Assembly (NCBI GenBank): GCA_019914995.1
Contig: CM034138.1
Location: forward strand, 3,782,001-3,846,000
Reading direction: 5' to 3'
From: Acanthochlamys bracteata
Lineage: Eukaryota; Streptophyta; Magnoliopsida; Pandanales; Velloziaceae
DNA length: 64,000 bases
Numbering within the stretch: the stretch's first letter is position 1; each line of letters begins with the position of its first letter. The translations under genes and the position numbers were made by a program. Below the pieces are notes generated by a model. It saw only the letters and a list, made by a program, of their open reading frames with translations. It ran no database searches and had not been told where the DNA came from. This document shows, piece after piece, positions 3,500-62,800 of the stretch.

Positions 3500-5310
3500 G
3501 GGATGGGATGTAGGCACATTCCATCTCATAAGGCACATTGTTTACTGTAGGCACATGGTGTTGAGTGAACGGCTGTGATGCATGCACTAATCGACGAACG
3601 GCTGTGATGCGCTCCATCATTTTTAACCTAGGCACATCGACTTGCCCTCGAGCCAGCATTCTCATCTCAATCATTTTTTCCTCTCCTCTCTCTCTCTCCT
3701 CTGCGCAGCGCAGCGGCGTCTTCCACTCCGCTTCCGACCGCGAAATATAGTCCTCCACGCTCGATGCCGGCACGATTTCGCAACAGAGAGTCTCTGTTTG
3801 GGCTTTTGATCAAGATTCCCGTTCGTTTTCGTCTCCGGTTTCAACTCTAGCCCGATTTCGCAATTCCAGCCGAAATCGAGCTCTCCGCGGCTCGATTTCG
3901 CGATTGCGGTCTCCGATTCGGCCGTTGAGAATGATTCCGGCCCGATTTCGTCTCCGGCTTCCCCTCCACTCCAGCTCGATTTCATAATTCCGGCCGAAAT
4001 CAAGCTCTCTGCGGCTCGATTTTGCAATTTCGGTCTCCGATTCGGCTATTGATCAAAATTTCCTGCTCAATTTCCTCTCCGGCTTCCACTCCGGCCGAAA
4101 TCGAGCCTTCCGCGGCTCGATTTCGCGATTCCGGATTCCGATTCGGCCGTTGAGATTGATTCCGGCAAGATCTCGTCTCTAGAGTTCACTACGACTCGAT
4201 TTCGTGATTTCGGTTCGTATGTTGAGAATTAGTCCGGCCCGTTTTCGTCTCTGACTTCCACTCCGGCTCGATTTTGCGATTCCGGCCGAAATCGAGCTCT
4301 CCGCAGCTCAACTTCGCGTTTCGGATTCCGGTTCGACCGTCGAGATTGATTTTGGCCCGATCTCGTCTCTGGCTGGCACATTATTTACTGTTGGCACATG
4401 GTGTTGAATCAACGGTTGTGATGCAAACACTTAATCAGCGAACGGCTGTGATGCGCTCCATTGTTTTTAACCTAGGCACATCGACAGCGAGAAGCATTCT
4501 TAAAATTTTTTTGAGAATGTGCTCAATTGAAGCATTCCTCTCAAAAGTTTCCAATCTCCACTCCACAATGGAGTGTTGTGCTCCGCGTTTCGGCTTGTGA
4601 TCAACATTTCGGCTCGACTTCAGCTTCGTATCCTACATGATTTATTTTAATTTTCTCGACTTTGTTTTAACTTTCATTTTTGCTGAATTGTTTTACATTT
4701 CACTGATTCTGTTTTTTTGGCTGATTTTTCCACTGATTTTTCTTGGGTGTTTGGATTTGTTTTATGGGTATTGGTTTGATTTATGTAGTATTGGTTTTGA
4801 TTTATGTGATATTAGTTTTTATTATGTGGTATTGGTTTTGAATTATGTATTAGTTTTATAGTGTGTTGGATAGTTTGGCCGAAAGAATTTGTTGAATACA
4901 TGGTTGCCGAAATTGGAAAGGTATGTTGGTTTCTTGCATCACAGCTGTTGGTAAATATTGATGAGGTAATGATAGGGCTGCAAAATTGCTCTCTGTTTGC
5001 TTGCAAAGTTGCTCTCTCTTTGCTTGTTTTGGAAAAATGCTGGAAATGTAACTCTCTGTTGTGAAATGTTATCCTATGCTGAAAATATTGATGAGGCTGA
5101 TGAGGCAATGATGAGACTGCAAAATTATTTTATGTTCTTTCTTCCTCAATCGGCACTACCCTTTAATTACATGGCAAGGCAGTAAGGATGGTGGCAAATA
5201 GCAGCCGCAACCACTGCAGCTGTGATTAGAGAAAGCAGTGTAGAGAGGTAGAGAGCAATGGATGGTTTGAAACAGTCCTTTGAATCTCAGTGATTGATTA
5301 AAATCAGTCT
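3500..5310. repeat. Left long terminal repeat region of MULE1
   Basis: This matches the complement of about 9725-10825 in order. It holds the terminal GGCACAT..TTTACTGTAGGCACAT block, then CG-rich subrepeats built on CTCGATTTCGCGATTCCGG, a short AT-rich tandem repeat (about 4740-4870), and an inner block near 5170-5320 with CAAGGCAGTAAGGATGG. The left copy is longer because a second terminal block starts at about 4376 in the same orientation as the first. Confidence 0.7.
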
Positions 5311-6305: not shown

Positions 6306-8665
6306 TTATACAATTTCATCTAAAAAATCATCACCTATTGATATGTCATCATCACTGTTGTTGAGATCATTTGTATTTATGGATTCATTATCATTACTAA
6401 GATTGGTTTCATCAATAACTGTCTTCTTCTTTCTGTTTGAATTTTCAAGACAATTTCGCTTATCGTGTTTAACGCCAATCTTATTACAGCAAGCACATCT
6501 TCTCCATATTTTCGCTTTACTTTTTGCAAGTGACTTCTCCAAACCGCCTTTTATTCTACTACTACTAACAGAAGCTTTTCCTTCTCTTTTCTTCCCTTGG
6601 TTTGTGAAATACTTGGATTTAAAAGTAGAATTTGAGATGCATTAACACCAACTTGTGTGCTCTCCGTGGCAGTACATGAATCATCTTTTTAGCTCTCATT
6701 AGTCTTCCTTACTTCATTGATTTGCAGTGACAACTTTTGTAATGTTTGCAACATTAATTGAAAAGTCTCGTCTGCTTCACCAACTTCATAGGCCAATTGA
6801 GTGGAAATCTTCAAAAGTTGAGTAGTTCTTAGTAGGTCAGAATGCTCATGGCCTCGTACTGCTCCACCATCATACTCGGCTCTATATTTAGTAGCCCGTT
6901 TCATCCACCTCTTAAGAATGAAGTTAAACAGGTATGTCTATGTCACGGGACTGAAAAACTTTCATAAAATGTCCACAAGGAATACCAACAAAGTCAAAGA
7001 GTTTGCATTCACAGTAGCCTTCTTTGGTGGCATGGTTGAATTTTACCTTCCACGCACGATCATCACCGAGCACTCGCGACTTGTAAATGTAAGTCGTGCA
7101 GCCATCACTATCCTTTTCATCGTCATATAGAACATATTCTACTTGAGCTTTTTCAAACTCATTTATGAATCTGTCCTACACATTTCTAGTATATATATTT
7201 GCTGCATTCTTCAAAAGATAAGCATGACCACCTATAATGCGATCAGAGTGTTCGCTCATATAATCCTCTTTCTTTTCCTTTTCCACAATTTTAGCCAAAC
7301 ACTTGTCGTTCTTCACTACAAACTCGCGAAGAGTTGTTGTAGGGTGAAAAAAGTTATTGTAAACAGAGTTCATACCTTCAAAGCGTCCTGTAGTATTCAT
7401 ATCAGCATAAAAGGTGTCAAAATGATAAGCTGGAGCTCATTTTTTTCGAATTTCGTAGATCCCTTGAAGCCATTCGTTCTCTTTCAAATTGTACTTACAT
7501 ATCAATTCATTCCATCTCATCTCAAAAGCACAAAGAGTATAAGTGTAACTAATGCACATTCGGATATCTTTTTTATATTGTGACTTTTTGAAATAAATGT
7601 GTGGAAGCTTTTCAGAAAATTTTTTCATCACATACCACAAGCAAAATCGATGTCGTGTATTCGGAAATACCTTCTCAACTACTGCAGTCATAGTTTTATC
7701 TTGATTAGTAATGAGAAAAGATGGAGCACGTCCTCCCATAGCTGCAAGCCAAGTTTCAAAAAGCCAATGGAAAGACTCTTCTGTTTTATCCAAAAGTAAT
7801 GCACAACCAAATGAAATTGAGTGCATATGGTGATTCACTCCAGTAAATAGGGCAAACGGCATTTCATACACTTTTGTACGATATGTTGTGTCAAAGAACA
7901 TCACATCCCCAAAATATTGAAATTGTAAACGAGATCGACCATCCACCCAGAAAAAATTTATTGCTCTTGCTTCACTGTCCATCTGTATTGCATAAAAGAA
8001 ATTTGGATCTTTTATACTCTTCTTCTTAAAAAAATCAAGCGCTGCGCTTGCATCCCCTTGAACAGGTTTTTTGTACTCTTTAGATGGTCCCAAATGATTC
8101 CAACAGTCTCTATCATCAAAACCAATGTGTGGTCCATCGAGAATATCTGCAACTTTATTTACTGGTATGTCTTCATCACGAAATGAATCAACTAGCATCT
8201 TCGCTGCAGCGGGCATATGTTTACAAACAGTCATGCGCATCCGTTTCGCTGGACTGACAAAGCTGTGATTATGCTCACCAATATAATGAATCACTTTCCA
8301 TAATCCAGTTGGTTGTTTTTTTATTTTTATTATTGCAGGACATCCGCATTTCACTGTGGATGTACTTCTCTTCCGGTTAATAACATTACTATGGAAGCTC
8401 TCATATGGTTGTTTTTTGGCATGGTCTTTGTACGCACCAAAGCGTTGACAGGTCATCAAACAAGAAGTGACTTCATCGGAGCCTTTTCTTTTTTCGATAC
8501 TTCGAATAACCACACTAAATCCGGTTGCTCTTCCATAATATATATAAAATTTCTTTGCAGCTTCAAGAGTTAAAAAAATCATATCTAAACATGGTGACTT
8601 TTTCTTCTCTGTTGTTATATTCTGAGTTGATGCAGCAGAATATTCGGCCTCATTTGTTTCGAAAT
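6306..8665 (-). pseudogene. FAR1/FHY3-like MULE transposase, recently inactivated
   Basis: Read on the minus strand, the order is a FAR1-type N-terminal DNA-binding region (near 8580-8230), an MULE transposase core (FFDTTYRTKVYEMPFALF near 7890 and the DKTM segment near 7700), a SWIM zinc finger (CECK..GIPCGHFM, about 7005-6950), and a basic C terminus with a CACCN..KHDKRNC zinc-knuckle-like motif near 6480. The longest open stretch is 7437-8582 (381 codons). The frame is broken by TGA at 7437-7439 (a Trp codon in the family pattern), TAG at 7176-7178, TAA at 6689-6691, and frameshifts near 6940 and 6590. The upstream part likely starts after an acceptor ending at 8666, so an initial exon is missing from the call. 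A family role in transposition of MULE1 is inferred; the protein as it stands cannot be full length. Confidence 0.85.
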
Positions 8666-9721: not shown

Positions 9722-10829
9722 GAGGCACATGATTTACTGTAGGCAATGAGATTCAAATATACTACCCATATCAGGACTAATCGAAACCATCCAACATTCT
9801 CTCCCTCTCTGCACTGCCTTCTCTAATCGCAGCTGTAGTGGTTCCCATCTGACTTTGTTAGTTGCCATCCTTACTACCTTGCTGTGATAAAGAGGCAATA
9901 GAATGCGAAAGAAAATTTTATTTCTAGCCTCATCATTGCCTCATCTGTATATCCCAATATTTCAGTTTTGGCAACCATACATTCAACATTACATTTTCCG
10001 CCCAAACTAACCAATACATCGTAAATAAAAAATCAATACATCGTAAATCAAATCCAATACACCGTGAAACAAATTCAATACACCGTGAAATAAATTCAAT
10101 ACACCGTGAAACAAATCCAATACAACAAATACAACAGAAAACAAATCTAATACACCGCAAAAGAAATTCAATACATCATAAAATAAATCAATGAAAATCA
10201 AAATAAATAATCAAAAATAAAAACAAATCGGCTCCGGAGACGAGATCGTGCCGGAATCAATCGTAACGGCCGAACCGGAATCCGGAATGGCGAAATCGAG
10301 CCGGAGTGGAAGCCGGAGACGAAATCGAGCAGGAAATCTTGATCAATAGTCGAACCGGAGACCGGAATTGCGAAATCGAGCCGGAGTGGAGGGGAAGCCG
10401 GAGACGAAATCGGGCCGGGATCATTCTCAACGGCCGAATCGGAGACCAGAATCGCGAAATCGAGCCGCGGAGAGCTCGATTTCGGCCGGAATAGCGAAAT
10501 CGGGCCGGAGTTGAAATCGGAGACGAAAACGAGCTGGATCTTGATCAAAAGCCGAAACAGAGACTCTCTGTTGCGAAATCGTGCCGGCATCGAGCGCGGA
10601 GGGCTCGATTTCGCGGTCGGAGGCGGAGCGGAAGACGCCTAGGTTAAAAAAACGATTGAGATGAGATTGCTGGCTCGAGGGCGAGTCGATGTGCCTACGT
10701 TAAAAATGATGGAGCGCATCACAACCGTTCGTCGATTAGTGTCGCATCACATCCTTCAATCAACACCATGTGCCTACAGTAAACAATGTGTCTCATGAGA
10801 TGGGATGTGCCTACATATTATATATATAT
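9722..10829. repeat. Right long terminal repeat region of MULE1
   Basis: Inverted copy of the left repeat (compare 3500-5310). The outer terminal block is at about 10690-10816, CG-rich subrepeats at about 10240-10640, and an AT-rich tandem repeat at about 10010-10200. Its inner border at 9722 begins with a block, GGCACATGATTTACTGTAG, that again resembles the element terminus, in direct orientation. Confidence 0.7.
10010..10200. repeat. Tandem repeat of about 20 bp inside the right inverted repeat
   Basis: About eight copies of a unit close to TTCAATACACCGTGAAACAAA. A diverged complement (TTATGTAGTATTGGTTTTGA type) occurs at about 4740-4870 in the left repeat, showing that the tandem array is part of the inverted repeat. 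Cys-rich reading frames across it are repeat artefacts. Confidence 0.7.
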
Positions 10830-13800
10830 GGGAGGGGATGCGCGCACATCCCGTTGTGCGCCGTTCGATTGCTGATTAGACGGCCCACGTGTGTGCGCTT
10901 GCGCGTAAAAGAAAACAGCATACGGGAGGGCAATTTTGTCAATTCCTTATAATTTGTCTCCTCAACGCGCTGAGGGTTTTCTTTCACATTTCTTCCTTTC
11001 TCTTCTTTGCAGCAAGCTCGCCGCTGCCTCCCACTTATCGATTTCACGCTGCCGAGCCTTCTTCTTCGTCGTAGGTTCATTCTTTCTCTTTCCTTCTCTT
11101 TTCTCTAATAACTCTCAAATCTTTCTCGCTTCAAACCCTAGAATTTCGCTCGTCGGACCGAAGCGTTCAATCGCCGGCCGACGATCGAAATTAGGGCTAG
11201 CGAACCTTAGATACTTCTTCTATTCCTTCTTTTATACCTTCTACAGTCTTCAATTTCTGCATTCGTTGCCGTTAGTCCTAATTCTTTCGTCGGGCCGGAG
11301 CTTTCAATCACCAGCCGATGATCGGAATTAGGGCTAGCGGACCATCACTTCATCTTCTTCTCTTTCTTCTATGCCATCTATAGCCTTTAATTTCTGCATT
11401 CACAACTGTTCATCGGCCGTTGGCTAGAGCGTTTGAAAACCTGCCGGCGATCAAAATTCAGGTAACATTTTAAATATATTCTTATTGCAGCATTGCAATT
11501 TGAACGTTATAACTTTAAAAAACTTTTTAACAATTTCAACAATTTTTTTGACAGTTTTTTGCCGAAGAGCTTGCTGGACGAACAGTGAGTAGTCGGTGAT
11601 CAACAATGTAATTTTAACATTCACATTGTAATTTGTTTTTGTGCAGTCGATGATCATCGTCGCTTGGATGCCAATATAATGTTAAGGCATGCAGCTTAAT
11701 TTGTCTTCTTTTTGCTAGATATGAGACTCTTGTTGTTTCATAAAAATGTTAACAGCTTCTAGTTTGTGTTTTCTATAGTAAAACAATTTTATTTGGTATA
11801 TCTCTTACCAGAACTTGCTGTCAGGTATATTTGCTTCCAATTCGATTGAGCTGTTGATTTGTGTTGGAAATATTTGTGTATTAGACATCAGAAATCTTGG
11901 ATGACCTAGTTTTTCATCTCCAACATCAACCTATTGATTACCTGAACATTAAAACATTGATATTTAAGCAGAATCTTATATGCATCCTTCTTGCAGGAAC
12001 TAGAACAAAGCTTAATAAATCTGGATTAAGGCCAAGGAGATAGCTTGTATGAACGATATTTGCATGGCAGGTTTGCCCTTTTTCTTCTTTCAATTTACTT
12101 TTAAAGTTTATTTTAATTTTTTTATGATTGCCATGCAGACTGGAAGGAGAATGTGTTGATCAGTTCCTAATTGATTTGCTATATTTCGTTGATTTCATAT
12201 TATTCTTTGCTGTTAAAGATGTTTCAATTGCTAGTGCTTCTCTGGTTCAATCATCATAAAAGTGACAGCATGTTTTCTGCTCTGGTTCAAGTTAAAGTGA
12301 AGTAGTGAGTGGTTCTGTACTCATGGCCTGTAGAGCTTCTTCTTGTTTCTGTTTTTATTTTTTGTCTAATGAATGCTGATGCTTGACCCATGATTTCTGA
12401 GTGCAAAGAGAAAGGTGAAGGAGGAGAGCTACAAGAATGTAGTGCGTTGAAGTGTGTGTGAATGATTTGTAAAATGTAATGTATAATGTTGTGAATGAAA
12501 TGTACAAATTTGTGAAAGGTTTGTATAATGAATTTTTGTTGTTATGAACGGAAGCTTGAAAGTGTAAATAAAAGTGTTGCTAATGAAATGTGAAAATGTT
12601 AGAACTTTGTTTAATGAATTATTTTGTCGTCAATGGAAGGTGAATGCTTTCATTTGGACAGTGAGTGATAAGGGAATGTGAATGTAAGAGTGAATTGTTG
12701 ATGCAAAAAAATTCTTGTTATATTGTGAGTTGTTGTGAATGCTATGTAAATAGAATGTCTAGAATTTGAGTGGACTTTTGTTGTAAATGAATTATTGTTA
12801 TATTGTGAATGTTATGCGAATAAGATGTGCAAACACATAAGCTGAGTAGGCAATGTATTACATAAATTTGAACATTTAAGCATTACAAACGAGCTCGTTA
12901 GCATTCTAGTAATACTTCAACATTCATACTTGAGTACCGCTCAAGGACATTCACCATTGCTACCCCATGAACATCAATGAACAAAAAAATATTCACACTA
13001 ACAAATTTTTTGATGCCAAAACCATTAACATTCCATTCACAATTTAAGTATTACATTTGATAGTTTTGACAATAGAATTTTTAGCAAACATAGCTCAATT
13101 TTCATAATCACATCCTCAATCAAATATTGGCCAGGTTCCGTTCACAATATTATAGTTTTATTGTTACATTCACTTCGTTACATTCACAGGAATCTTTCCA
13201 CTTGTAGTCGCATCCATCGTTGGCATTACTACAGCTTTGCAATGCTCCGAAAAATTAATGCTGAGTCGATACTGAGTTCAAAGCAGAGCTACAGAATTAT
13301 GTGGTTGCATTTGAATTTTTAACACACCTCAAACTATGATTCAAACTTACAATTCAGAATTACAAATTTTGGGTTTCCTCTCCGGAAGCTTTAGTGATGC
13401 AGCAACTAAATCACCTTTCTTGATTCAACCTATAAGAGCCGAATGTCTCATTCCAGAACAGTAACCTATAATGTTAAGAATTAGAACTTAATAAATGAGG
13501 CAAGTTAAAATGTAACTCGCCACAACTTCTGAAGAAAAGACAAGGAAGAACAGACTACCTAGTGACAATAGCTCTACAAAACACGAGATCAATGAGTTCA
13601 TGAGAAATTTGAATAAGTTTTCAAGTAGCAATATCCACCAACAAAATCTTCAAAATATATCACAAAACACAAAAGTGGTAGATTTTTAATCACAAAATGT
13701 TAAAGATATGCAGTAGGTACATTATTTTGATACAACAGAGGAAAAGAACATCCTGTATTAGATGAAATTCCATCTCCGAGAAACAAGCATCTTCTCAACC

Positions 13801-50247: not shown

Positions 50248-52439
50248 TCATCTCCATTATACCTAATGTTATTTACATAATAGAATGCTGAGCTAGAAAC
50301 GTGAATTATAATGTTCTTATAAAAATAACATTTTGTTATAAGTGAAAATGTGATAATCACTAATTAGCGTGTCACAAAACTATTTACTATTTTGATGTAG
50401 AATATAAATTAATTAATTTTAATTTAATATACCTATTAACAGTTATATATTATTTCAAATTTTGATTATAATTTTGAATTCATAGTTATGTTATTTATTA
50501 GCGTGTCACTTATTGCTATTCTATCTGCAGTTTTTCAAAAGGAGTTCCCCAAAGGATTAATCTAAGGAGCGTTCTTTTTGCAGTAAATCACATAATAATA
50601 AAATAAATTATTAAATAGTGCCGTTGAAAATAAGTTATAATTTTTGTAATTTTTTTAAATAGAAATGATTTAAAGTAATATTTTGTATTTTTTTATATAA
50701 GTAAAAGTAAGTTAGAATGAATTTTTTAAGTAAAAGAAAATAAATTATGACGTGAAAAAAGAACACATCTACTGACTCATCTCATTCCGCTGATGTCCAG
50801 ATTAGGTTTTCTTGGCCTGTTCGGCGATGCTTTTCTATAAAATTAATTTATCATTTTTTTATTTTATATGTTTTAATAAAATTTTTATAATATAATATAA
50901 AATACATTTAAAATTTTAAAATATATATAATTTTACGTAGTAAATTTTTTATTTGTTATTTTTATTTTTTAGATCAAAATAATAAAATTTATTTAGTGAA
51001 ATAAAATAAAAATATTTTTTATTTAAAAAATTATTTTATAAATACTTTCAAATATCTCTTATTAAGATAGGCGGCCGGCCATATCTATCTTGATTTTGTT
51101 TTTTTAACCATTTTTTAAAATAACCATATCAGTATATTCATCTTATAGCACGACTTTAAATTCATCGAGTATTGATTCAAATAAATACTATGAGTATCTA
51201 TCTTTATGTCAAAAAATATTAACACCAAATAAAGTTTAAATATTAGTAAAAATATACATATAAAAGGTGGTGAGAATAAATAAAAAATTCTAAAAACTAC
51301 GTTTATATAGAGTTGCATAACGTCTCAAAATGTCGTAAAACTTTAATTACAAATAGTTATTGTAAAAATTTTTTAAAACATAATGTAAAATATTAATTGG
51401 TATATATGTATAATGTACGTACAAACAACAATATCGGAGGCTTTGGTTTTGAAATTGATGGCAGAAAAAAGTTTTGAATGGTTTTATCATTCTACTCTGT
51501 GTATACCAATATCGTACTCCACAACATTAAATAGGATGCGTTTGGCATTGATTTTTATTCTATTTCAAAAAAAAATTTATTTCATATTTTTAATAAATTT
51601 TTTATAATATTTCATAAAATTTATTTAAATATTTAAAAAATATAAAAAATTTATATTATAAAATTTTATTATTATTTATTTTATTATTTTTTAAAATAAA
51701 ATAAAATATTTTTTGTTTAAAAAAAATATATTTTAAAAGCACTGCTAAACACTTATAATCTAGGACGAGCTTGATGGGGTAAAGTAACTGTGAAGTAGAG
51801 CAGCCAACTGTCACAATAATAACTTTGTTATCGATGAGGGTTGCACAGAATGATCTTTTCGGTACATGTTCTGTTGACATTATAGGCGTTTTGAACGGAG
51901 TAGTGACGGGCGGCAACTTCATCCGTGATGGGATTATAATAAGGGTGAATTTCAATTTGATAAATGTGAGTTCTACAAAAATAATTTTTATAAAAATAAA
52001 ATTTGATAAAAAATTAAAATTCAATAAAAGTCGAATTTAAAGTGATAATTAAAATACTTAAATAAAATTTTTGTGAAAGTAAAAATAAAAATCAGATTAA
52101 TAAACAAAATACCTGAAGTATCAGAATTCAAATTTTAGAAAAAAAAAATAAAATTAGGTAGCAAACGAAACATGCTCTGAGTTGGATAGCAATGTCAAGA
52201 GGAAAGTGAATTTGAAGGAAGAGAAGCAGGAGAAATTGAACGGATTTGTACGAATGCTGTTATATTCGCCATGACCAAACATCGAAGAGTACGCTGATTG
52301 CTATTAGAGGAAAAAGAACTTGAAACAGATTGCTCCAAGGCACCAAGATTGATTGCCTGCCTGTAGGAAATGAGAAGCACCTAAAAATTGATCTAATAAA
52401 AAGTTAAGAACAAAGATATCACGAATCTCTGTACGAATC
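50248..52439. other. Intergenic, repeat-rich
   Basis: No gene recognised. Contains MITE-like blocks at about 50818-51060, 51534-51753 (starts GGATGCGTTTGGCA) and 51940-52170 (similar to the 39.7-kb element). Short frames are low-complexity. Confidence 0.45.
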
Positions 52440-53407
52440 ACTAAATAAATAGGTTTATTTAGTTATATAACTTTTGGAAAAAGTTATTTATATATCTGAA
52501 AAAAGATATTTATTTATATATTTTAAAAAAAAGCACAAAATTACGTAAGTTTTAGAAATAAAAAAAATTTTCATAAAAATGAAAAAATAAATAGAAATAT
52601 AGAATTTATCTTCAACCTCTCTTTAACACTTCTTCCGCCACTCTTTGATCTTCTTTTTTCGCTATTCTTCAAATATACAAATAAATATCTTCAATTATTC
52701 TTCAAATACAATATAAATTTCTTCAATTTTTTCGAAAATTTTTTGAAAACTAAAAAGTGTAAAATCAAATAGTTTGTTGAAAGAAAATTCAACAAAATTT
52801 TTAATTGAATTTCGTAATGAAAATCTAAAATTTTTTTTTAAATATTATTTAAAACATGAAAAAAAAAATTGTACAAGAAAAAATTCTTCAATCAGACTAT
52901 ATATAAGTTGAATATTAGTCGAACAATAATGTTTTTGAATTAAAAGTCATATAATTCATAAAATAAATTTATCATAAAATTTGTAATTGAATTTCGAAAA
53001 ACGCCTGCGATCATTTGTAAAAAGTATCACTTGAAACATTAACAAATTAAAAAGAAGAAAAATATCTTCGACCATATTCTTGCGCATTTGTGGAACACAA
53101 TTTTATATTTAAAATATCATATAGTTCAACAAAATAACACAAAATCGTATTTAAATTTTGTAATAAAAACTAACAAACATTTGTAAAAATATTATTGGAA
53201 ATATGAAAGAAAATTTAAAATTAAAAAAATTATCCTCAACCCGTATTACCTCCTACAAATAATAATATTTTGTCAAAATCATTCAATTTATAAAAAGCAC
53301 ATGATTCGTGATTGAATCTCGCATAAATTATTAAAAATATTTATAAAAATATTATTGGAAGCATGAAATAAATTAAAACAATAAATTTGGATTCTTAGAC
53401 ACATAGC

Positions 53408-56323
53408 TAGAGGTGCAACAGCAGGCGGGCCGGCCCGGTCCGGGTATGAAATTTTAGATCTGACCCGACAGTCCGTTATATATATTTATTTTTTAAATAA
53501 TAAATTTAAATAATATTTAAAAATATTATTAAATATAAAAAAATTGAAAATAACCTTAAAAATTATTACTAAATATAAAAAGCTTAAAAAATAACTTTTA
53601 AAATTATTATTAAATATAAAAAAATTATTATAATTTCTAATATGTATATAATTATACATTTGAACTTGTACTTGGAATATTTTCATTTAAAAATAATTCA
53701 GAAAATTGTTCAGTCAGATCTTCATTGTGAGTTGTATGCTGCATTCGTTTGACTGCAAGTTTCCAGTCTTTCAAACAAGTTAACACTTCAACCATCTCAC
53801 TAGTAAGTTGTGTTCTGCGTTCTTCAATTATCCTTCCAACTATACTAAATGTCGATTCTGAAGACACCGTTGAAACAGGAATAGTCAAAATATCACGTGC
53901 TAGTTGAGAGAGTACTGGATATCTTGTTGAATGTGTTTTCCACCAGTTCAAAATATTAAAATTTTTTGGGTTTTCATCGTCTTCTACAATGACAGTATCA
54001 CCTTCAAAATATTTGTTCAAGTCCGAAGAAGATTGCATGCTGCTTGAAGTTGAAGATGGTGTTGAACTTGAGCCAGGCTTGATGGAGATCAAAGACCAAT
54101 TGATCATTTTTTTCTTCTTACTTTGATGAGTTTGTGCCGGTGCCGCTTGTTGTTGTTGATTTCGCAAATTACCAAACCTAACTTCATAAAGATCATAAAC
54201 TTCATACAGCTTGTTACGAGCGTTAGTTATTTGCAATTGAATATCGGAAATATCTAAATACATACCAATATATGTAAGAGTATTAGTAAAATATACAAAT
54301 TTAAATCTAGGATCTAATATAAATGCAAAACAATATAAAAGAGGAATATCAGACCAATATTTTTTTAATTTTTTAGTCATTATTGTAACTATAGGTCCAA
54401 GTAATTCATCTGTTGTATGCGAATGTAGCATAGTAGCTATATTAAGAATTGAATGTAAAACTAATGAAGAAGTAGGATAGTAAACACCAGATAATAAAAC
54501 AGTAGCATCATAAAAAGTTTCTAAAAATTCTACAAGTTTTTCAGCAATAATCCAATGAGTTTCAGTAAATATATTGTTACCCATTCTTGTATTATAAAAA
54601 ATCATAAGCATAATTTTATAATCTAAAGTACTTTTCAACATTAGATAAGTAGAATTCCATCTTACTGGCATATCAAGGTTGAACTTTCGGGGCTTTAGAT
54701 GTTCTGCTATGCAATATCTTTTAAATTCAGCTAAACGTTGATTTGAACTAATAATCCAAGAAATAGCAACGCGAATATCATTAATCTGATCACTTACCAG
54801 CTGCATACCTGATTGTACGATTAAGTTGATAATATGGCAAGCACAACGTTGATGTAGTAAAATTTCTCCCATGTATGAGCTTAGCTCCATCTCAAGAAAT
54901 CGAATTGCTTTGGTATTTGCTGAAGCATTATCTAGGGTGATGGAGACAATACGGTTGCTTAAGCCCCATTCTTTAACTACACTTATAATGCGCTCAAAAA
55001 TATTTTTAGCATCATATGTGGAATCAATAAGTCTAAAACCAATAATTCTTTTTTGCATAATCCATTGTGAATCTAAATAATGAGCAACAATACTTAAATA
55101 ATCTTGTTTAGCTCTACCACTCCAAATATCAGATGTTAACGCAATAGAAAAATTTAAAGAAGTTAATTCAGATTTTTAATATAGTGCGCATTTTATTGTA
55201 ATAAATAATAATATCGCTTCTAGTAGTTGTTCTACTAACTTTTTGAAATTGTGGACAATATAATTTTTTAATATGTTCTTCATAAAAAGATGACTCACCA
55301 AAATTAATAGGTAAATCCATAGCACAAATCATACGGGCAAGAAATTCCCTAGCTACATTAGAATCATAAGACCAAGTACTTTCCGAACCATCCGTGTTGA
55401 ATTGAAGTTGAGTTTGTGAAGGTTCCCTTCCGATTTATTTTTTGGAAGCACATTTTTTACCATGTGCTAGTAAATATCGGGTACCTGCACTAGGATTAGC
55501 AGTTAAAAGTTTATTGCAAAACTTACATTTCGCCATTTTTGATTGAGTACCATCACTTAGCACTGTATATTCAGCAGTGAAATAGTTCCAAGCTTCAGAT
55601 GTTGGGACTTTTGAACGTTTTGTTGCTATTGATGTCGATCCTGAAGCCGAACTACTTCCAACACTTGGAATTGGAGGAATTTCGTTACATGTTTGATTAA
55701 AACTTCTTCTTGGAAGAATATCATCTCCTTTCTCCATACGGGCAATATCTATTTCCTCCAAATTTTGATCGTCCATGCCATAGTCATCCAAATTAATGGC
55801 ATGAAAATTTGGATCCATTTGAAATAACAACTAAAATTTTGATAATTAAAGAAATGTGAATTTAAAAAATAAAGCAAGAAATAATTTCTTTTATATTTTG
55901 TGTAAGATTGAGTAGAATGAAAATGAGATTTGAAAGAAATGTGTGAAAAATGAATGAGAATATGATGTATTTATAGGTGAAAAGTTGAATTTAAAAAATA
56001 AAAAAAAAATTAACGTTGCTGGCAGCCAACGGTAACACTACCGTTGGCTGTACAACAATCATGCTGACGTCAGCATGACAGAAAACCATATAAGATTTTT
56101 GACCTGGTCAACGATCAACGTTGACCAGGTCAAAATCAATGTTGACCGATCAACAGAACAGTGCCAGGCGGGCGGGCCAGCAGAGTCGGCCCGTCCTGCC
56201 CGATTCACTGGGCCGGACCGGTCCGATCTTGTCACTGTTCACCGGGCCGGGCGGGCCTAGAACCGGGCTAAATGGCCGAGCTGCAGGCCGGCCCGTTTGG
56301 CCCGGCCCAGATTTGCATCTCTA
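53408..56323 (-). mobile_element. Complete hAT transposon
   Basis: The 2916-bp element has inverted ends TAGAGGTGCAA (53408) and TTGCATCTCTA (to 56323). It is flanked by an 8-bp duplication, CACATAGC at 53400-53407 and CCCATAGC at 56324-56331, with one mismatch. Both subterminal regions are very GC-rich (GGGCCGGCCCGG-type repeats), as in several plant hAT families. It carries one transposase gene on the minus strand with only two lesions, so the insertion is fairly young. Confidence 0.9.
53652..55830 (-). pseudogene. hAT transposase with one stop and one frameshift
   Basis: The first part (55435-55830) carries a BED-type zinc finger (CKFC near the end, then a His and Cys in LLAHGKKC). The second (53652-55058, 468 codons) has the core with LDNASANT and CHIINLI motifs and the hAT dimerisation region (SSESTFS.. 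RRTQLTSEMVEVL) at the C terminus. The frame between them is interrupted by TAA at 55435-55437, after which the same frame stays open for about 85 codons, then by a one-base shift in an A-run (T5 on the plus strand, 55173-55177). Otherwise the sequence is well preserved. The protein would bind the element ends and catalyse cut-and-paste transposition if it were intact. Confidence 0.9.
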
Positions 56324-56831
56324 CCCATAGCCAATCGTAAGTCGAGTATTGGTCGAATAACATTAATTACAAATAATTTTCATCTTTTAGACCCATATAT
56401 AAGAAGGAAAGAAGAAACTTGGATTCTTCAACACGTAAATTTTCATATTTAAGTTAATTTTTTTTATTTTGAAATTTTCTTTAATGATTTAGTGATAATA
56501 TTCGTAGAAAAATATATCTAAATTCTTTTATTGCAAAAGTCAACCATGAAGTTTGTAGTAAAATTCATTTTATAAAGAGTATTATCTTTAAATAAAAAGG
56601 CATTGTTCAACTATATTACAAGTTGAAGACAATTTTATTTTTATTTTTATTTTTTTGGTTTTAATGATTCGGTGATATTTTCAAATAATGTTCTTAAACA
56701 TTTTACTGCGAACAAATTTTGTGATAAATTCTTTTACAAATTGTATAATTTTGAACCAAATATCATTATCTATTGTTGAATATTGGTGAAACACAATTTT
56801 GTTTTCTTTCTTAATTTTTCATATATCTTAA

Positions 56832-57640
56832 GGGGTCGTTTGGAAGTGCTTATGAAATAAAACTTTTATCAAATAGAAAGTATTTTTTTTAAAAAATAAG
56901 TTCTATCTTTTTTACTTCTAAAAAAATAAATAAAAATATGCAATAAAAAATCTCATTACGTAAAATTTTTTTTACACTTTCTAAATTTTTAAATAAATTT
57001 ACTAAATACTTATAAAATATATATTGGAAAATATAAAATAAAAAAAAGTAAAGCGTTAGGGGTGGCAATTCGAGTTTTTGCGTCGGTTCCGAGTCGACCC
57101 ATATAATAATCGGGTCAAAATTGTTTAATCCTAATCCGACCTATTTATTTATATGGGTCAAATTTATCAATCCTAATCCAACCTATTTATAACCAAGTCA
57201 AACTCGGATCGACCCATTTAATAATTAAATTATTAAATAAAAATTATAAATATTAATTTTTAATAATAATATAAAATTATTAATTATGATATATTTAAAA
57301 AGAAAAATATTAATTTTGACATAATTTATAAATTAAATAAAAATTGGTTAAAATTAAGATAAACTAAAAATATATATACAAATTAAATTCAAATTTTTTG
57401 CTATTATTTTCTAATTATTAAATAATATATACTATATAAATAGTTATACAGATTAAACGGGTCAAATTCGGGTCAATCTGAATTCGACCCGAATTCGTTT
57501 AAATTTTTCGGATTATTTTCGGATTGACCCGAACCCGACTAAATCTTGAACCAAATCTGATCTTTTCAGATCGGTTTTAGATTGAATTCTCGGATCAGAT
57601 CGAAATTTGCCACCTATAGAAAATACTAAGCCAAACGAAC
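56832..57640. mobile_element. Tourist-like MITE interrupted by a smaller hAT-like MITE
   Basis: The left end GGGGTCGTTTGGAAG follows TAA. The right end, inverted, is GTTCGTTTGGCTTAG at about 57640. Between the two halves lies a separate element (57057-57616). The left half matches the family interior (TCTCATTACGTAAAATTTTTT). Confidence 0.6.
57057..57616. mobile_element. hAT-type MITE
   Basis: 560 bp with ends TAGGGGTGGCAA and TTGCCACCTA. GC-richer subterminal DNA carries GACCCG and TCGGATCAGAT motifs around an AT-rich middle. Candidate 8-bp flanks (TAAAGCGT and TAGAAAAT) agree at only half the positions, so the duplication is doubtful. The terminal sequences are a well-known plant hAT MITE type. 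Confidence 0.65.
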
Positions 57641-59209
57641 TATATTCTTAGGATACATTTTAAGCTTTGTTTTACGAAATTCAATTATGATGATAAAATT
57701 TATTTCACAAACTATTTGTTTTAATAAGATTTACTTTTCGACTAGTATTCGATCTAGATCTGATATTTGGGGATGGTTTTTTTTACCTTCTTAACTCTTT
57801 TCCATATTTATAGTGATATTCAAAGAAAATGTTTTGAGACATTTTATCATGAAAATCAAACTCTATGATTGTTAATCGAGCAACTTTTTGTCCCACCCGT
57901 ATTCGATCTAAACAGAATATGGAGGAAGATATATTTCTTTGTTATTTTTTTCATGTTTCTAGTGATATTTTCAAGAAATATTATGAAATGTAGCTATCAA
58001 TCTTGTTATAAAATTATTTTCATAAATTGAATGATTTTTTAACCCAAAAATTGTTCTGCAAATAATACTCAATATTCAGTTAGAATATGAGTTTAAGAAT
58101 GTTTTTTCTCTTCTTCTTAAAATTTTCTTTCATATTTCTAGTGATTCTCTCAAAGAATATTTTAAATATTCCAAAAATTAATTATTTATCTTGTGATAAA
58201 ATTTATTTTTAAATATGTATGATTTTTAGACAAAAGATTATTGTTCGACCAATATTCAATCTAAAATCAAATAGGGATTAATTTTTAATTTTAATTTATA
58301 TTTCTAGTGATATTCTTAGTAACTGTTGCTACTTTTTGTTGTGAAATTTATTTTTAATCTTTTAATAAAATTTATTTTATGAACTGAATTGTTTTTAACA
58401 AAGAAATTATTCTTCCACCAATATTCAACCTACAATTGAATACTAGTCGAGCACAATTTTTTGAAAGTTTTTTTTTATGTTTCAAATAATATTCTGAGAA
58501 AATATTTATAAATTTTTAATTACGAAATTGAATCAATTATGTATTTTGTATAAATTTATGTTTAACTTTTTGTTATGTTTCTAATAGTATTCTTTAGAAA
58601 TTTGTTATAATATAATTACTTATCTTATGATAAAATTTATTCTACAGCGATGTGATTTTGAACAATAAAATTATTGTTTGGCTAATATTATCTAAAATCA
58701 AATACATATCGAAGTCATGTTTCGTTCTTTTTAAAAAATATTATAAGGATATTTAATGAAATAGTTTTGATGCTTTTTATGCAAAATAATTATGAAGTTT
58801 ATGATAATATTTATTTATAAATTGTATAATTTTTTTAACAATAAATGTTTGATTTATATTTGACCTATGGTTGAATATGGGTGGAAGTTTTGTTTCCTTA
58901 CTATAACTTTTTTCTATGTTTTTAGTGACGTTAAATGTTGTAGCCTTGTAGGCTTTTCATTTTAAATAATTAAAAGATTTTGTGTTTATAAACTGTATTA
59001 CTTTTAACAAATTAATTTTCAAATAAGTGTGAAAAAATATTGAAGAAATTTATTCTCTTTAAAGAATTGTTGAAGAGAGATGGGAAAGTGATTGAAGAGT
59101 TGTTCAAGAAATGAGCAAAGAGCGATAGACGAAAGTGTCGAGGAGAGGTTAAAAACAAATTATTTATTTCTGCTTATTTTATTTATTTAAAAATTTGATT
59201 TTAATTTTA

Positions 59210-59440
59210 GAGTATGTTTACTAACACATCAAATTTTATTTTTTTAAACTCAATTTTAATATAAAATATATATAAAAATTAAACTAAATTTTTTTATTAA
59301 TTTTTTTTAAAATTTAATTTTAAAATTTCTATAAATATAAAATTTTATTTTTACTAAATATTTTTACTTTTTATTTTACTTTTAAATTTATTTTTTAAAA
59401 ATTTCACTTTACCCACTTTCAAATCTAAATAAACACATCC
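59210..59440. mobile_element. MITE with TTA target duplication
   Basis: 231 bp, flanked by TTA at 59207-59209 and 59441-59443. Ends GAGTATGTTTACTAA and, inverted, GGATGTGTTTATTTAG. It splits the right end of the foldback-like element. Confidence 0.75.
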
Positions 59441-59756
59441 TTATAATAGTTCGGTGCTATTTTCTTAAGACATATAAATAAATATCTCTACTATTTTTCA
59501 GTCTATTACTTCATAGAAATTTTTATATTTGCACTTAGATATACGTTGCAAAATTGGTTATCATTAAGAAGAAAAAAAAGAAAAAAGATCGAGAAAGCCT
59601 AAGAATATTTTGATAAAAAAGAAGTAAAAATTTATTTTAAAAGGTAGAATTAAAATATTAATTTTCTATAGTGAAAGGGTTATTTTGAAAAAAACTAAAA
59701 GAAAAAAAGAAAAACCATCTAGAATCCGAACCAGCAAGAACAAGAGTGTCACTTGA

Positions 59757-59792
59757 TTCATTCATTCATTCATTCAATCAATCAATCAATTT
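59757..59792 (+). repeat. ATTC/AATC microsatellite in the ETHE1 leader
   Basis: About four ATTC units are followed by four AATC units and a CTCTCT tract, 40-75 bases upstream of the ETHE1-like ATG and probably transcribed as 5' leader. Confidence 0.65.
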
Positions 59793-59831
59793 CTCTCTCT
59801 ATATAGAAGAAAAATTTCTTTTCCACCCACC

Positions 59832-62800
59832 ATGCTTCTCCACCTTCGCTTACCAGGCTTGCTTCTTCTGCGCCGCTCTCCGGCGAACGAGCTCTTGTTG
59901 TTTTCTAAGCAATCGAGAAAAGATTTGGGTAGTTTTAAGGCGTCCTTCTCGAGATTCACGGCAATGGCGGCTTATAGTACACCGGCGGAGCAGAGTTCGA
60001 AGCTTCTGTTTCGGCAATTATTCGAGAAGGAATCCTCGACGTATACTTATGTCTTAGCTGATGTTGGTCACCCTGAGAAACCAGCTCTGGTACTAGTTGA
60101 CTCAAAAAGATTCAATCTTTTAATTTTCATTTTTTAAAACGTCTTAGATTTGAGCTTATTTTCTTCAATAACAAGCTGTGCTTATGTTGTATTTGCGAGT
60201 GTCAATTGCCTTATATTATCTTAGGATCATGGAAATTTGTGAATGGTAAACTAAATATTGGTGATGTAGCAAGCTGGGTTTTTTTGAGTTACTGTCCTTC
60301 ATGTTGATTTTCCATCAAGATAAATACGTCTTACATGGAAAATATTTTAACTTTTATATTTCTAAGCATGTGTTTAAGGGTAATTCTCATATATACTAGG
60401 GAATGATGCAGGACCTACTTCTGCTTTGTAGCAAAGTTTAGTTCAGTAATTCAACATTTGTATTTCTCTTGTTTAGCAATTTGAACACTAACCTTTTTTA
60501 GCATATTGTAGCATGTGTAGTAATTTGTTCATGATTAGACTGTAAACCTATTGATCAATCAGGTTAACTAAATACGGATAGTTATCAACTTCTAAGCTGC
60601 AAATATTTCATCATTTTCTTTTTGCTTGCTTTGTAGCATCTTCTGTTCAAATGATTTTCATTTTAATTATAGAGATGATGCTCTTAATTGCACTTCTGTA
60701 GTTGGTTGATCCAGTGGATAGAACAGCTGATAGAGATCTAAATCTTATCAAAGAATTGGGGCTAAAGCTAATTTATGCAATGAACACCCACTGCCATGCT
60801 GACCACGTTACTGGGACAGGTTTGATAAAGGTTTGTTGTTCCTTGCTCGTCAGACTTGTCTGCCTAATGAATTACAGATCCTCTTTTATACAACTGGCAA
60901 AGGACTTACAATGTTGTACTTGATGATTTTATCTACATCTCTATTTCCTTGGGTATATAAATGGCCTTGTAATGAAAATTACTTGCAGAGGAAGCTGCCA
61001 GGAGTGAAATCTGTCATCTCAAAGGCCAGCAACTGTAAAGCAGATCTTGTGGTAGAACATGGTGATAAAATTCATTTTGGCAATCTTTATTTGGAAGTAG
61101 GTACTCTTTCGTTATTGAAAATGCAGCTGTCTCATATCTATTTTTGCGTCTATAGTCAGTTCCATTTAAATGAAATGATTTAGTTGGACACTGCATGCAT
61201 ACAGTCTGAATTCTTCTGTCTAAAGAAGTGCGTGCTTTACTTGTGTTTTAACTTAAAGAAAGGCTAGTACATGTCAGGAGCTAGACGTCTCATGAGCCTC
61301 TCTTCAATTGATGAAACCCTATGATATTAACAATTAAGTGGTCAAATGTGACACTTCGATTGAGACTAGTTGTTTGGGCACATGTCTAGTTTGATCAACA
61401 ATCCTCCAAGTCTTGAGTTAAATCTTTTCATACACTTAATGATATTATAAATCTGCATATACAGTTTGACATTTTCTGTTGGAAGATGTGGCATGATTAT
61501 CAGTTAAAAGTGCTTTTGAAATGTTGGAGTTACCAGGAAACAGAAAGCACGGGTACGACTCCAACCAAAAATAACGAGCTGTAGTGCATAAGCATATTTG
61601 ATTCTTTAGTAGATGGATGTGCCAATATGTTAACTTGGCTGTGCTTGTTTCATATTGCTAACACGTGTATTCCTGCAGGTTCGTGCTACACCTGGTCATA
61701 CTTTGGGTTGTGTTACCTATGTCACGGGAGATGGACCTGACCAGCCCAATCCCAGAATGGCATTTACTGGTGATGCATTGCTTATTAGAGGCTGTGGCAG
61801 GACAGATTTCCAGGTACAGCTGATATCTTCTTTTACATCTAAAACGTTTCAGTGCAACTTTGTATTGTTATATACCATTTGTTCTCTCGGCCAGAAGTTG
61901 TGACCTGTTAACATCCCAAAACTATGATTCACCTACTTAAATCATGAGATAGAAATACATGAAATTGTTCAGTGCATAAGAATGTAGGCCCTAAATGTAA
62001 CGCCTTGGATGTCAAGCATGTGATATATATGCCAAGAAACCCACTTAGTTATGTGCTAAGCCATTTGAAGCGGCTCATATGACTGGTAAGTGCAAACCTG
62101 AGAAGCAAGTGTTGTGCAAAGGTAGTTTAAGTGTATGACATGCTCTATAATGTGCTGAATTCAAAGTTCTTTGGGGAAGGAAAAACAAATTTGATGAAGA
62201 TGGATTGGTTCCGGTCCTTGTCGTGGTTTTTGAGAAAGTAGATCTAGCAGGTGCAAGTCACAATTCGTACAAGCCTGATTGACCTATTTCTTATTATTCT
62301 TATTAGTTGATGACTTGACAGCATCTAATATTACTAAAGCAGTCCCTTTTTTCGAGTGTCCTCTTGCCTTTCTGGTATAGAAGTTGCTTTCCTTGTGAGC
62401 ATGGCTTTGGATGCTTTCATGAATATGCAGCAATGAACTGGATAACATCCAAATAATATCGATAGACTGATAATAGATACTGGTTTGATGCTTATGTGCT
62501 TGTCCAACTTTAGTTCTTCTATCTGCTTCAAAACCCTTATGTTTTCAAGAGAAGAATCATGTGGTTATTTCTAGGAGTCATTGAGTCATAAAATTCAAAG
62601 CATTTTAATATCTATGAGCAAGATGGACACTCCTAGTATAAATGACCCTTGGGAACAGCTCTTTATTTGTCATAGTTTGTAGCAATAAAATATGATAAGT
62701 TGTGATATAGTGTACCTTAACGGAGTGCAAGATAAATTTCAAAAACCTTAAGAGACGTCTTTGTGTTACAACTCAAAAATTGGCATGCATGTAGCTCAAT

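Follow-up and report, generated by a model that had tools for sequence, protein, structure and literature searches.

The region between 52.5 and 59.7 kb of the window (the whole stretch analysed, 64,000 nt of Acanthochlamys bracteata; CM034138.1, positions 3,782,001–3,846,000, forward strand) has the layout of a foldback-type DNA element that occurs in dispersed copies: between inverted terminal domains lie two opposed arrays of a single diverged unit of ~170 bp (Table 1). Very probably, it is a decayed copy belonging to an ancient, non-autonomous and probably Mutator-type foldback family. The foldback reading, first put forward in an earlier note on this DNA, is supported by the inverted arms, by further elements with paired ends in the same genome, by a conserved unit polarity, and by words repeated at the tips.

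Table 1. Parts of the element and inserted sequences (window coordinates).
Feature	Position	Strand	Basis
Left terminal domain	52493..52731	+	Terminal HMM 52493–52623; inverted homology to right outer piece
Left arm, four W-type units (52732–52857, 52904–53039, 53079–53204, 53265–53364)	52732..53364	-	Unit HMM; R2 model (derived from the left-arm units themselves)
hAT insertion between arms, not part of the element	53409..56323	-	Pfam PF05699, PF14372, zf-BED
Innermost left-arm unit, partial, past the hAT	56323..56368	-	Unit HMM, 13.8 bits, E 2e-4
Right arm, units 1–2 (56496–56628, 56672–56761)	56496..56761	+	Unit HMM
MITE insertion, not part of the element	56832..57640	.	Read from ends and flanks
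Right arm, eight more units (starts 57638, 57804, 57953, 58132, 58298, 58477, 58575, 58744)	57638..58873	+	Unit HMM
Right terminal domain, inner part	58886..59209	-	Inverted match to left terminal domain
MITE in right terminal domain	59210..59440	.	Boundaries of the earlier note; breaks an alignment continuous in relatives
Right terminal domain, outer part and tip	59441..59696	-	Terminal HMM 59452–59694, E 8e-27; tip motif 59677–59696

The unit HMM identified four units on the minus strand (52732–53364) and ten on the plus strand (56496–58873), in agreement with the two oppositely oriented arrays of one diverged repeat described earlier. The repeat had been given a length of ~175 bp; a common diverged unit does exist (mean likeness in the window about 65%, 0.647), but it has no even period, the spacing varying irregularly from about 100 to 190 bp. 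With the three inserts removed, the left arm (52440–53407) matched the right arm with a score of 152 in inverted and 34 in direct orientation. The maximum inverted score was 47 in 100 dinucleotide shuffles, and the same maximum was reached among 40 further stretches of 1.8 kb taken from the window, one of which shares ~90 bp with the left arm. BLAST of the masked region aligned 52556–53225 with 59207–58555 (64.6% over 692 columns, E 3e-51). The outermost sequences, which had likewise been described as inverted copies of each other, were compared with the arrays excluded (52440–52731 vs 58887–59700 minus the MITE) and scored 79 in inverted orientation, against no more than 30 in 100 shuffles. 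The self-comparison of the outer ends that had been proposed as a check thus revealed inverted homology by both BLAST and the shuffle test. Each of the long inverted arms is built of tandem repeats, the mark of foldback (FB-type) elements.

The limits of the element differ from the previously assigned span of 52440–59520, whose right boundary was misplaced: the terminal HMM and the tip motif put it at ~59,696, ~175 bp further out. The earlier impression that both tips are present did not hold for the left side. The profile match there begins only at position 242 of the 383-position model (52493) and extends to position 381 (E 1e-8), so that the left domain lacks the outer ~240 model positions, tip included. 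With this tip gone, no target duplication can be read from the copy in the window. Among the three later insertions reported before, the hAT transposon was borne out by its Pfam domains (dimerisation, RNase-H, and BED finger); its ends are TAGAGGTGCAA and TTGCATCTCTA, and the flanking 8-bp words, CACATAGC and CCCATAGC, match at seven of eight positions. The MITE at 56.8 kb, however, is apparently not one insertion but two nested ones, the second occupying about 57058–57618 as judged from its ends.

The relatives of this element were sought in the same genome, and the loci considered come from among the matches listed by our searches; most had been selected for their match to a query. Besides the window, the element scan covered 56 loci; the remaining fetched loci, many of which overlap and which include L032, were left out. 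A match to the terminal profile was found in 41 of the 57 records scanned, mostly query-matched ones. In at least 13 elements, the terminal domain is present twice, in opposite orientations: the window and at least 12 others (L018, L040, L041, L042, L043, L048, L049, L061, L078, L082, L024+L060, and L009+L079). L006/L015 is an additional palindrome bearing termini. On the loci covered, the proposed search for paired inverted ends was positive. The complete plan, i.e. terminal domain, units, opposite units, and inverted terminal domain, was present in L018, L040, L042, L043, L048, and L061. The terminal domain is ~380 bp long, with a tip of about GRNTTTTTG-CTTAAATGACC. A single end lay within the stretch fetched at 24 of 38 terminus places, and in 11 pattern-found loci no inverted tip partner stood out, L076 being marginal. 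Where units were detected, their number per arm ranged from one to ten.

The direction of the units with respect to the terminus, read by eye, was constant in 34 of 39 junctions (P 1.2e-6); this count omits a weak second T+ match in L049, the first T+ match of L080, and the outer T- match of L046. The five exceptions were L024 (at the cut-off used), L041, L078 right, L081, and L082 left. All seven W-unit loci included in the tree of terminal domains form one clade (support 0.99). The two arms of one element share 0.60–0.69 identity (10 elements), and termini compared across elements are hardly less alike (mean 0.624). These arm identities omit L006/L015 (0.962), because its flanks are duplicated as well, and the window, whose left terminus does not have the length required. 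Dispersed copies with common ends in inverted pairs and a variable number of units, as seen here, are characteristic of foldback elements.

Target duplications were proposed as a further check, and half of the relatives with intact tips carry repeats of this kind. Of the 13 pairs, six have two recognisable tips; an exact 9-bp word occurred at both tips in three of these six, vs none of 429 mismatched pairings. The anchors were hand-picked, and the limits of 6–14 nt from the anchor were fixed when all three positive pairs were already known. The direct repeats are TTATTTGACC (10 bp) in L024/L060, TGAAATTTG in L043, and ATTAATTTT in L082, in whose flank the 9-bp word is present a second time. 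No tip repeat was found in L061, L078, and L040, the tips of which are also intact. A looser test (40 nt, any word of at least 9) was positive for two of five pairs, vs 10 of 640 ordered mismatched pairings. In these three relatives, and with limits set post hoc, a target-site duplication lies flush with the tips, as in foldback transposons. MULE target duplications measure 8–11 bp, usually 9, and those of hAT and P elements 8 bp. The repeats of 9, 9, and 10 bp in the three relatives are within the MULE range.

In the search for a coding partner, none of 160 MULE/Mut domain matches (150 of 494 PF10551 candidates scored; 10 of 11 PF03108 rows taken in) lay less than 10 kb from any of 55 terminus places, which include tip-only and unfetched matches; the nearest was at 12.4 kb. 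A tip-pattern search for an autonomous partner gave 27 matches, vs eight with the reversed control. Thirteen loci were fetched (11 pattern matches and two known elements); nine matched the terminal profile (E <=0.01) and four did not. Reading the longest open frames of these loci by eye, L080–L082 excepted, revealed no transposase, and the L075 tip used as a query matched only L075. These foldback transposons could belong to a superfamily other than Mutator (P/Galileo-like or hAT-like) or to a class of their own, as the absence of MULE domains near the termini among the candidates scored would suggest. The tips, which mostly start with G, are otherwise without a known signature, and Galileo, a P relative, has the same arm plan (PMC3688188). 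Nevertheless, tip repeats of 9 bp, and of 10 in L024, suit Mutator better than hAT or P, and the plant foldback FARE is now placed with MULEs according to PMC4486113. We consider a non-Mutator origin unlikely.

One terminal domain is followed by two kinds of unit, W and C. These share at most one short motif: in 200 shuffles, the inverted score of 20 compared with a shuffle maximum of 19, and the direct score of 22 was equalled twice. A likeness between terminal domain and units, such as that reported for Tetris, did not rise above the level of shuffles here. Units of this size are typical of plant satellites, and the alternative raised at the outset was that a rearrangement had inverted a piece of a ~170-bp satellite, without any transposon. 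Several observations lean that way. Head-to-tail W arrays without a detected terminus were found in L028 (seven units) and L027 (three units), in a stretch of ~3 kb each, and C units occur outside the element in head-to-head clusters without termini (L050–L058). Average likeness within and between loci was nearly the same (W, 0.660 vs 0.654; C, 0.659 vs 0.658), with the window supplying most W pairs. The idea that an element's own units resemble one another no more than they resemble those of other elements was abandoned after a per-locus count: eight of 11 loci with at least two W units exceeded the between-locus mean of 0.633 (range 0.647–0.730). The excess was clear in seven loci (0.697–0.730), with the window (0.647) and L027 (0.659) apart; internal likeness was 0.705 in L028 and 0.722 in L032, which has a weak terminal match. 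Little or no homogenisation is seen in the window and in L024 (0.626), but this argues weakly against a satellite because some arrays are modestly homogenised locally. The rearranged satellite is disfavoured since the same plan, with the terminal domain paired in inverted orientation, recurs at independent sites with conserved unit polarity. The 9-bp words at the tips and the shortness of the arrays, with at most 10 units per arm, also speak against it, and we regard this explanation as highly improbable.

Hairpins and the adjoining gene were considered as well. The right tip lies 135 bp upstream of the ATG of an ETHE1-like gene. Local hairpins in 12 of the 13 W units tested (of 14) were equalled or beaten by 9–60 of 60 mononucleotide shuffles, and the idea of a conserved hairpin in every W unit was rejected; for the unit at 58298, none of 60 such shuffles matched the hairpin. 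Individual C pieces do fold, and RNAalifold found no consensus pair in C-unit alignment A3 (14 pieces, gappy), for which reason no selection on structure is claimed. Rfam gave no match over 51500–60500. It is hardly credible that selection maintains the locus as a hairpin source of small RNA or as a promoter element of the ETHE1-like gene: long inverted arms could give a hairpin transcript and the tip is close to the ATG, but likeness between the arms is only ~65%, three inserts interrupt them, and neither Rfam, the shuffles, nor the C-unit alignment point to a maintained structure.

The preferred reading, a non-autonomous foldback transposon, would imply that a Mutator-like transposase recognised the tips and moved the element in trans. 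Repeated internal binding sites may be supplied by the arrays of units, an idea taken from Galileo, whose repeated arms are documented to hold multiple sites for the transposase (PMC3688188). Array length may change through unequal exchange or slippage, and the arms may become inverted by copying back at palindromes within units. The consensus C-type period contains a palindrome of its own, and the centre of L042 is a similar palindrome. The inversion centres of nine C elements are 39–453 bp long, and no shared junction was seen among them. The window copy would afterwards have received the hAT and two or three MITEs and lost its left tip. More speculatively, and with little confidence, we propose that one transposon terminus captured two repeat arrays and that the foldback builds itself; as C units are also found clustered head-to-head away from the element, unit, cluster, and transposon may be interconverting states of one palindromic repeat. 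If so, an array copied back at any unit hairpin would become an inverted-arm element at once.

The copies of this family are numerous, old, and independent, and two kinds of unit lie behind a common terminus, which makes unit turnover and the origin of inversions open to comparison. A diverged array that might be filed as a satellite or as simple AT-rich sequence can be a transposon beside a gene start. To our knowledge, few foldback families have been described in plants. FARE is a foldback element of Arabidopsis with long palindromic ends.

FARE is cited in PMC3169594 and PMC4486113, and the latter places it in the MULE class. By description, it resembles the present family as a plant foldback with long palindromic ends, but in the present family no coding element was found. 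Tm1, a Mutator/Foldback element of root-knot nematodes, also has composite inverted ends with variable inner repeats and target duplications of similar size (8–10 bp, mostly 9, in 45 of 53 complete elements). It differs in its inner motif of ~14 bp, vs ~170 or ~240–370 bp here, and in that some copies encode transposase (PMC3169594). MuTAnT, a MULE of Medicago, shares the plant host and inverted ends made of modules that fold back; it differs in targeting TA microsatellites, in size (90% are 200–300 bp), and in having a known putative autonomous copy (PMC4486113). Galileo of Drosophila has long inverted arms with internal tandem repeats, but belongs to the P superfamily and its transposase is known (PMC3688188).

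Tetris, a foldback of Drosophila virilis, has an outer flanking domain followed by a variable number of ~220-bp tandem repeats per inverted arm, and likeness between its terminal domain and units is reported (PMC4079207). Tetris also resembles the present family in having no apparent coding capacity, 8–10-bp target duplications, and no transposase-bearing element found, in sharing its tips with another element (DAIBAM), and in units that are also arrayed without the flanking domain. The host of Tetris is an animal, however, and its units are ~94% alike (PMC4079207), vs about 63–65% here; the present family has two unit kinds behind one terminal domain and its terminus-free C clusters are head-to-head, the likeness being one of description. 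Judged by such analogies, the family is most likely closest in plan to Tetris and FARE, and most likely represents an additional member of an already known foldback type.

The inverted-array structure of the window copy, at ~52.5-59.7 kb, was confirmed. With the hAT element and two MITEs masked, self-comparison gave inverted matches 52556-53225 / 59207-58555 (64.6%, E 3e-51) as well as direct matches inside each arm. The inverted score of arm versus arm was 152, against maxima of 47 both in 100 dinucleotide shuffles and in 40 window stretches. The outer non-array pieces, which the earlier note had taken for inverted copies of each other, scored 79 versus 30 or less in controls. That note's opposed arrays of one unit, said to meet near 56.45 kb, were recovered with four minus and ten plus units, and a partial minus unit places the turn-around at ~56.37-56.50 kb. 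Its right boundary at 59520 falls short, since alignments with relatives show homology further out, to a tip at ~59,696. Nor are both tips present: the 383-position profile of the terminal domain matches the left side from position 242 only, the left tip being lost.

Features of the foldback copy in the window
Feature	Position	Strand	Remarks
Left terminal domain	52493-52623		profile positions 242-381 of 383
Left-arm units	52732-53364	minus	four units, unit profile
hAT insertion	53409-56323		interrupts arms
Partial unit	56323-56368	minus	unit profile
Right-arm units	56496-58873	plus	ten units, unit profile
MITE insertion	56832-57640		interrupts arms
MITE insertion	59210-59440		interrupts arms
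Right terminal domain	59694-59452		profile positions 29-296 of 383

The hAT and both MITEs interrupt the arms and are later than the foldback copy, as had been supposed. The 8-bp flanks of the hAT agree at 7 of 8 positions. A second MITE (GGGTGGCAA ... TTTGCCACC, about 57058-57618) apparently lies inside the longer one. At locus L009 (~248-951), the truncated terminal domain of another foldback copy adjoins a hAT whose open frame resembles the one in the window's hAT; one hAT family seems to have inserted in both copies. An ATG at 59832 follows the right tip at a distance of 135 bp, and the first 92 codons from there match 2gcu, putative hydroxyacylglutathione hydrolase 3 (E 1.3e-10). We take this gene to be ETHE1-like.

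Arm queries in DNA searches of the genome (195.5 Mb, 557 contigs) revealed loci sharing the terminal stretch. Terminal matches were present in 41 of the 57 records scanned, most of which had been chosen because of a match to a query, and merged into 38 places. Termini formed an inverted pair in 13 elements, the window copy and 12 others, the paired relatives being ~1.0-4.7 kb long including inserts; 24 of the 38 places showed a single end within the stretches examined. The paired loci L006 and L015 (G000:C13:5066839-5073004) are an additional, special case. They form a palindrome no shorter than 5.8 kb, whose arms are 87-92% alike, take in flanks beyond the foldback termini and have a third copy ~490 kb off (L007). 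This appears to be an inverted duplication of far more recent date, with a foldback copy at its centre. L067, L069, and L075 combine the terminal domain's outer ~110 bp with other inner sequence; the tip may be common to further element families (compare the tips of Tetris).

A target duplication was sought in six pairs with a recognisable tip at both ends. An exact 9-bp word occurred at both tips in three of them: TGAAATTTG in L043; TATTTGACC, part of the 10-bp TTATTTGACC, in L024/L060; and ATTAATTTT in L082, where it occurs twice in the right flank. No shared 9-bp word was found in L061, L078, or L040. Mismatched tip pairings gave 9 of 9 in 0 of 429 cases, with the allowed tip distances fixed only once the positive pairs were known. 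Under looser limits, the result was 2 of 5 pairs versus 10 of 640 ordered mismatched pairings. The shared words are good, not final, evidence of insertion.

One terminal domain lies outside two kinds of unit. W units, of period ~170 bp in the window, occur there and in L003, L007, L009/L079, L024, L025, L029, L077, and L080-L082. In C units the core measures 105 bp and the period 242-372 bp (15 pieces taken); they occur in L018, L040-L044, L046, L048, L049, L061, L062, L064-L066, L074, and L078. The C-unit query gave at least 125 matches (40 of 399 first-look candidates scored), many to the core only. All seven W-unit loci in the terminus tree (window, L003, L007, L009, L024, L025, and L079) fell into one clade (support 0.99). 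The clade also took in some loci where no units were detected and a single C locus, L066; L070, whose W match is weak, fell outside. Where terminus and nearest unit were both readable, 34 of 39 junctions had the unit in one and the same orientation with respect to the terminus (P = 1.2e-6 versus random orientation): 18 of 21 left-type, the exceptions being L024 (at the cut-off used), L041, and L082, and 16 of 18 right-type, except L078 and L081. In L050-L058, C-unit cores stand head-to-head, ~40-50 bp apart, every ~410 bp and ~73% alike; the stretches examined there contain no foldback termini. Such head-to-head pairs also adjoin W units in L079.

In ten elements the two arms were 0.60-0.69 identical, barely exceeding the mean of 0.624 found between elements (sd 0.039, n=867). 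The copies are thus old, and two ends cannot be linked by their identity alone. Pooled unit identities averaged alike whether or not the units shared an element; in the same arm, the other arm, and other elements they were, respectively, 0.660, 0.650, and 0.654 for W units and 0.659, 0.669, and 0.658 for C units. Per locus, W units were 0.659-0.730 identical in L009, L025, L027, L028, L029, L032, L077, and L080, versus 0.633 between loci, with little or no excess in the window (0.647), L024 (0.626), and L081 (0.621). Some arrays were accordingly renewed locally after spread, that of the window hardly, which makes turnover a weaker argument against a satellite fragment inverted by rearrangement than first thought. 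The foldback interpretation is supported by the inverted paired ends in relatives, the mostly conserved internal polarity, and the 9-10-bp tip repeats in three relatives.

We regard the family as non-autonomous, old, and probably of Mutator type; a Mutator-type enzyme would have moved it in trans. None of 55 terminus places lay within 10 kb of the at least 160 MULE/Mut domain matches (150 of 494 PF10551 candidates scored), and visual inspection of the longest open frames in the loci examined revealed no recognisable transposase. The window has a MULE transposase domain match at 7620-7904 (minus strand; open frame of 415 aa), between tandem repeats rich in G+C (3844-4092, 10234-10467, and 11150-11401); the terminal model has no match around it. 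A long palindrome in the C-unit period consensus, and another such at the centre of L042, suggest that inverted arms may arise there by copy-back, a speculative step. Hairpins did not exceed shuffles in 12 of 13 window W units tested, covariation was not found in the C-unit alignment, and a comparison of nine element centres showed no junction that they share. By analogy with Galileo (PMC3688188), the repeated units may be extra transposase binding sites.

No description of the family was evident in the titles and abstract openings of the papers listed in literature searches, and we do not claim it to be unpublished. On the Mutator side, it is paralleled by plant FARE elements, by description. 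Further such parallels are MuTAnT (PMC4486113) and nematode Tm1 (PMC3169594). Nearest in plan is Tetris of D. virilis (PMC4079207), compared by description rather than sequence: it shares with our family a flanking domain with variable repeats, there of ~220 bp, has 8-10-bp TSDs where three of our elements have the 9-10-bp tip repeats, shares its tips with DAIBAM, and has repeats that also occur outside the element.
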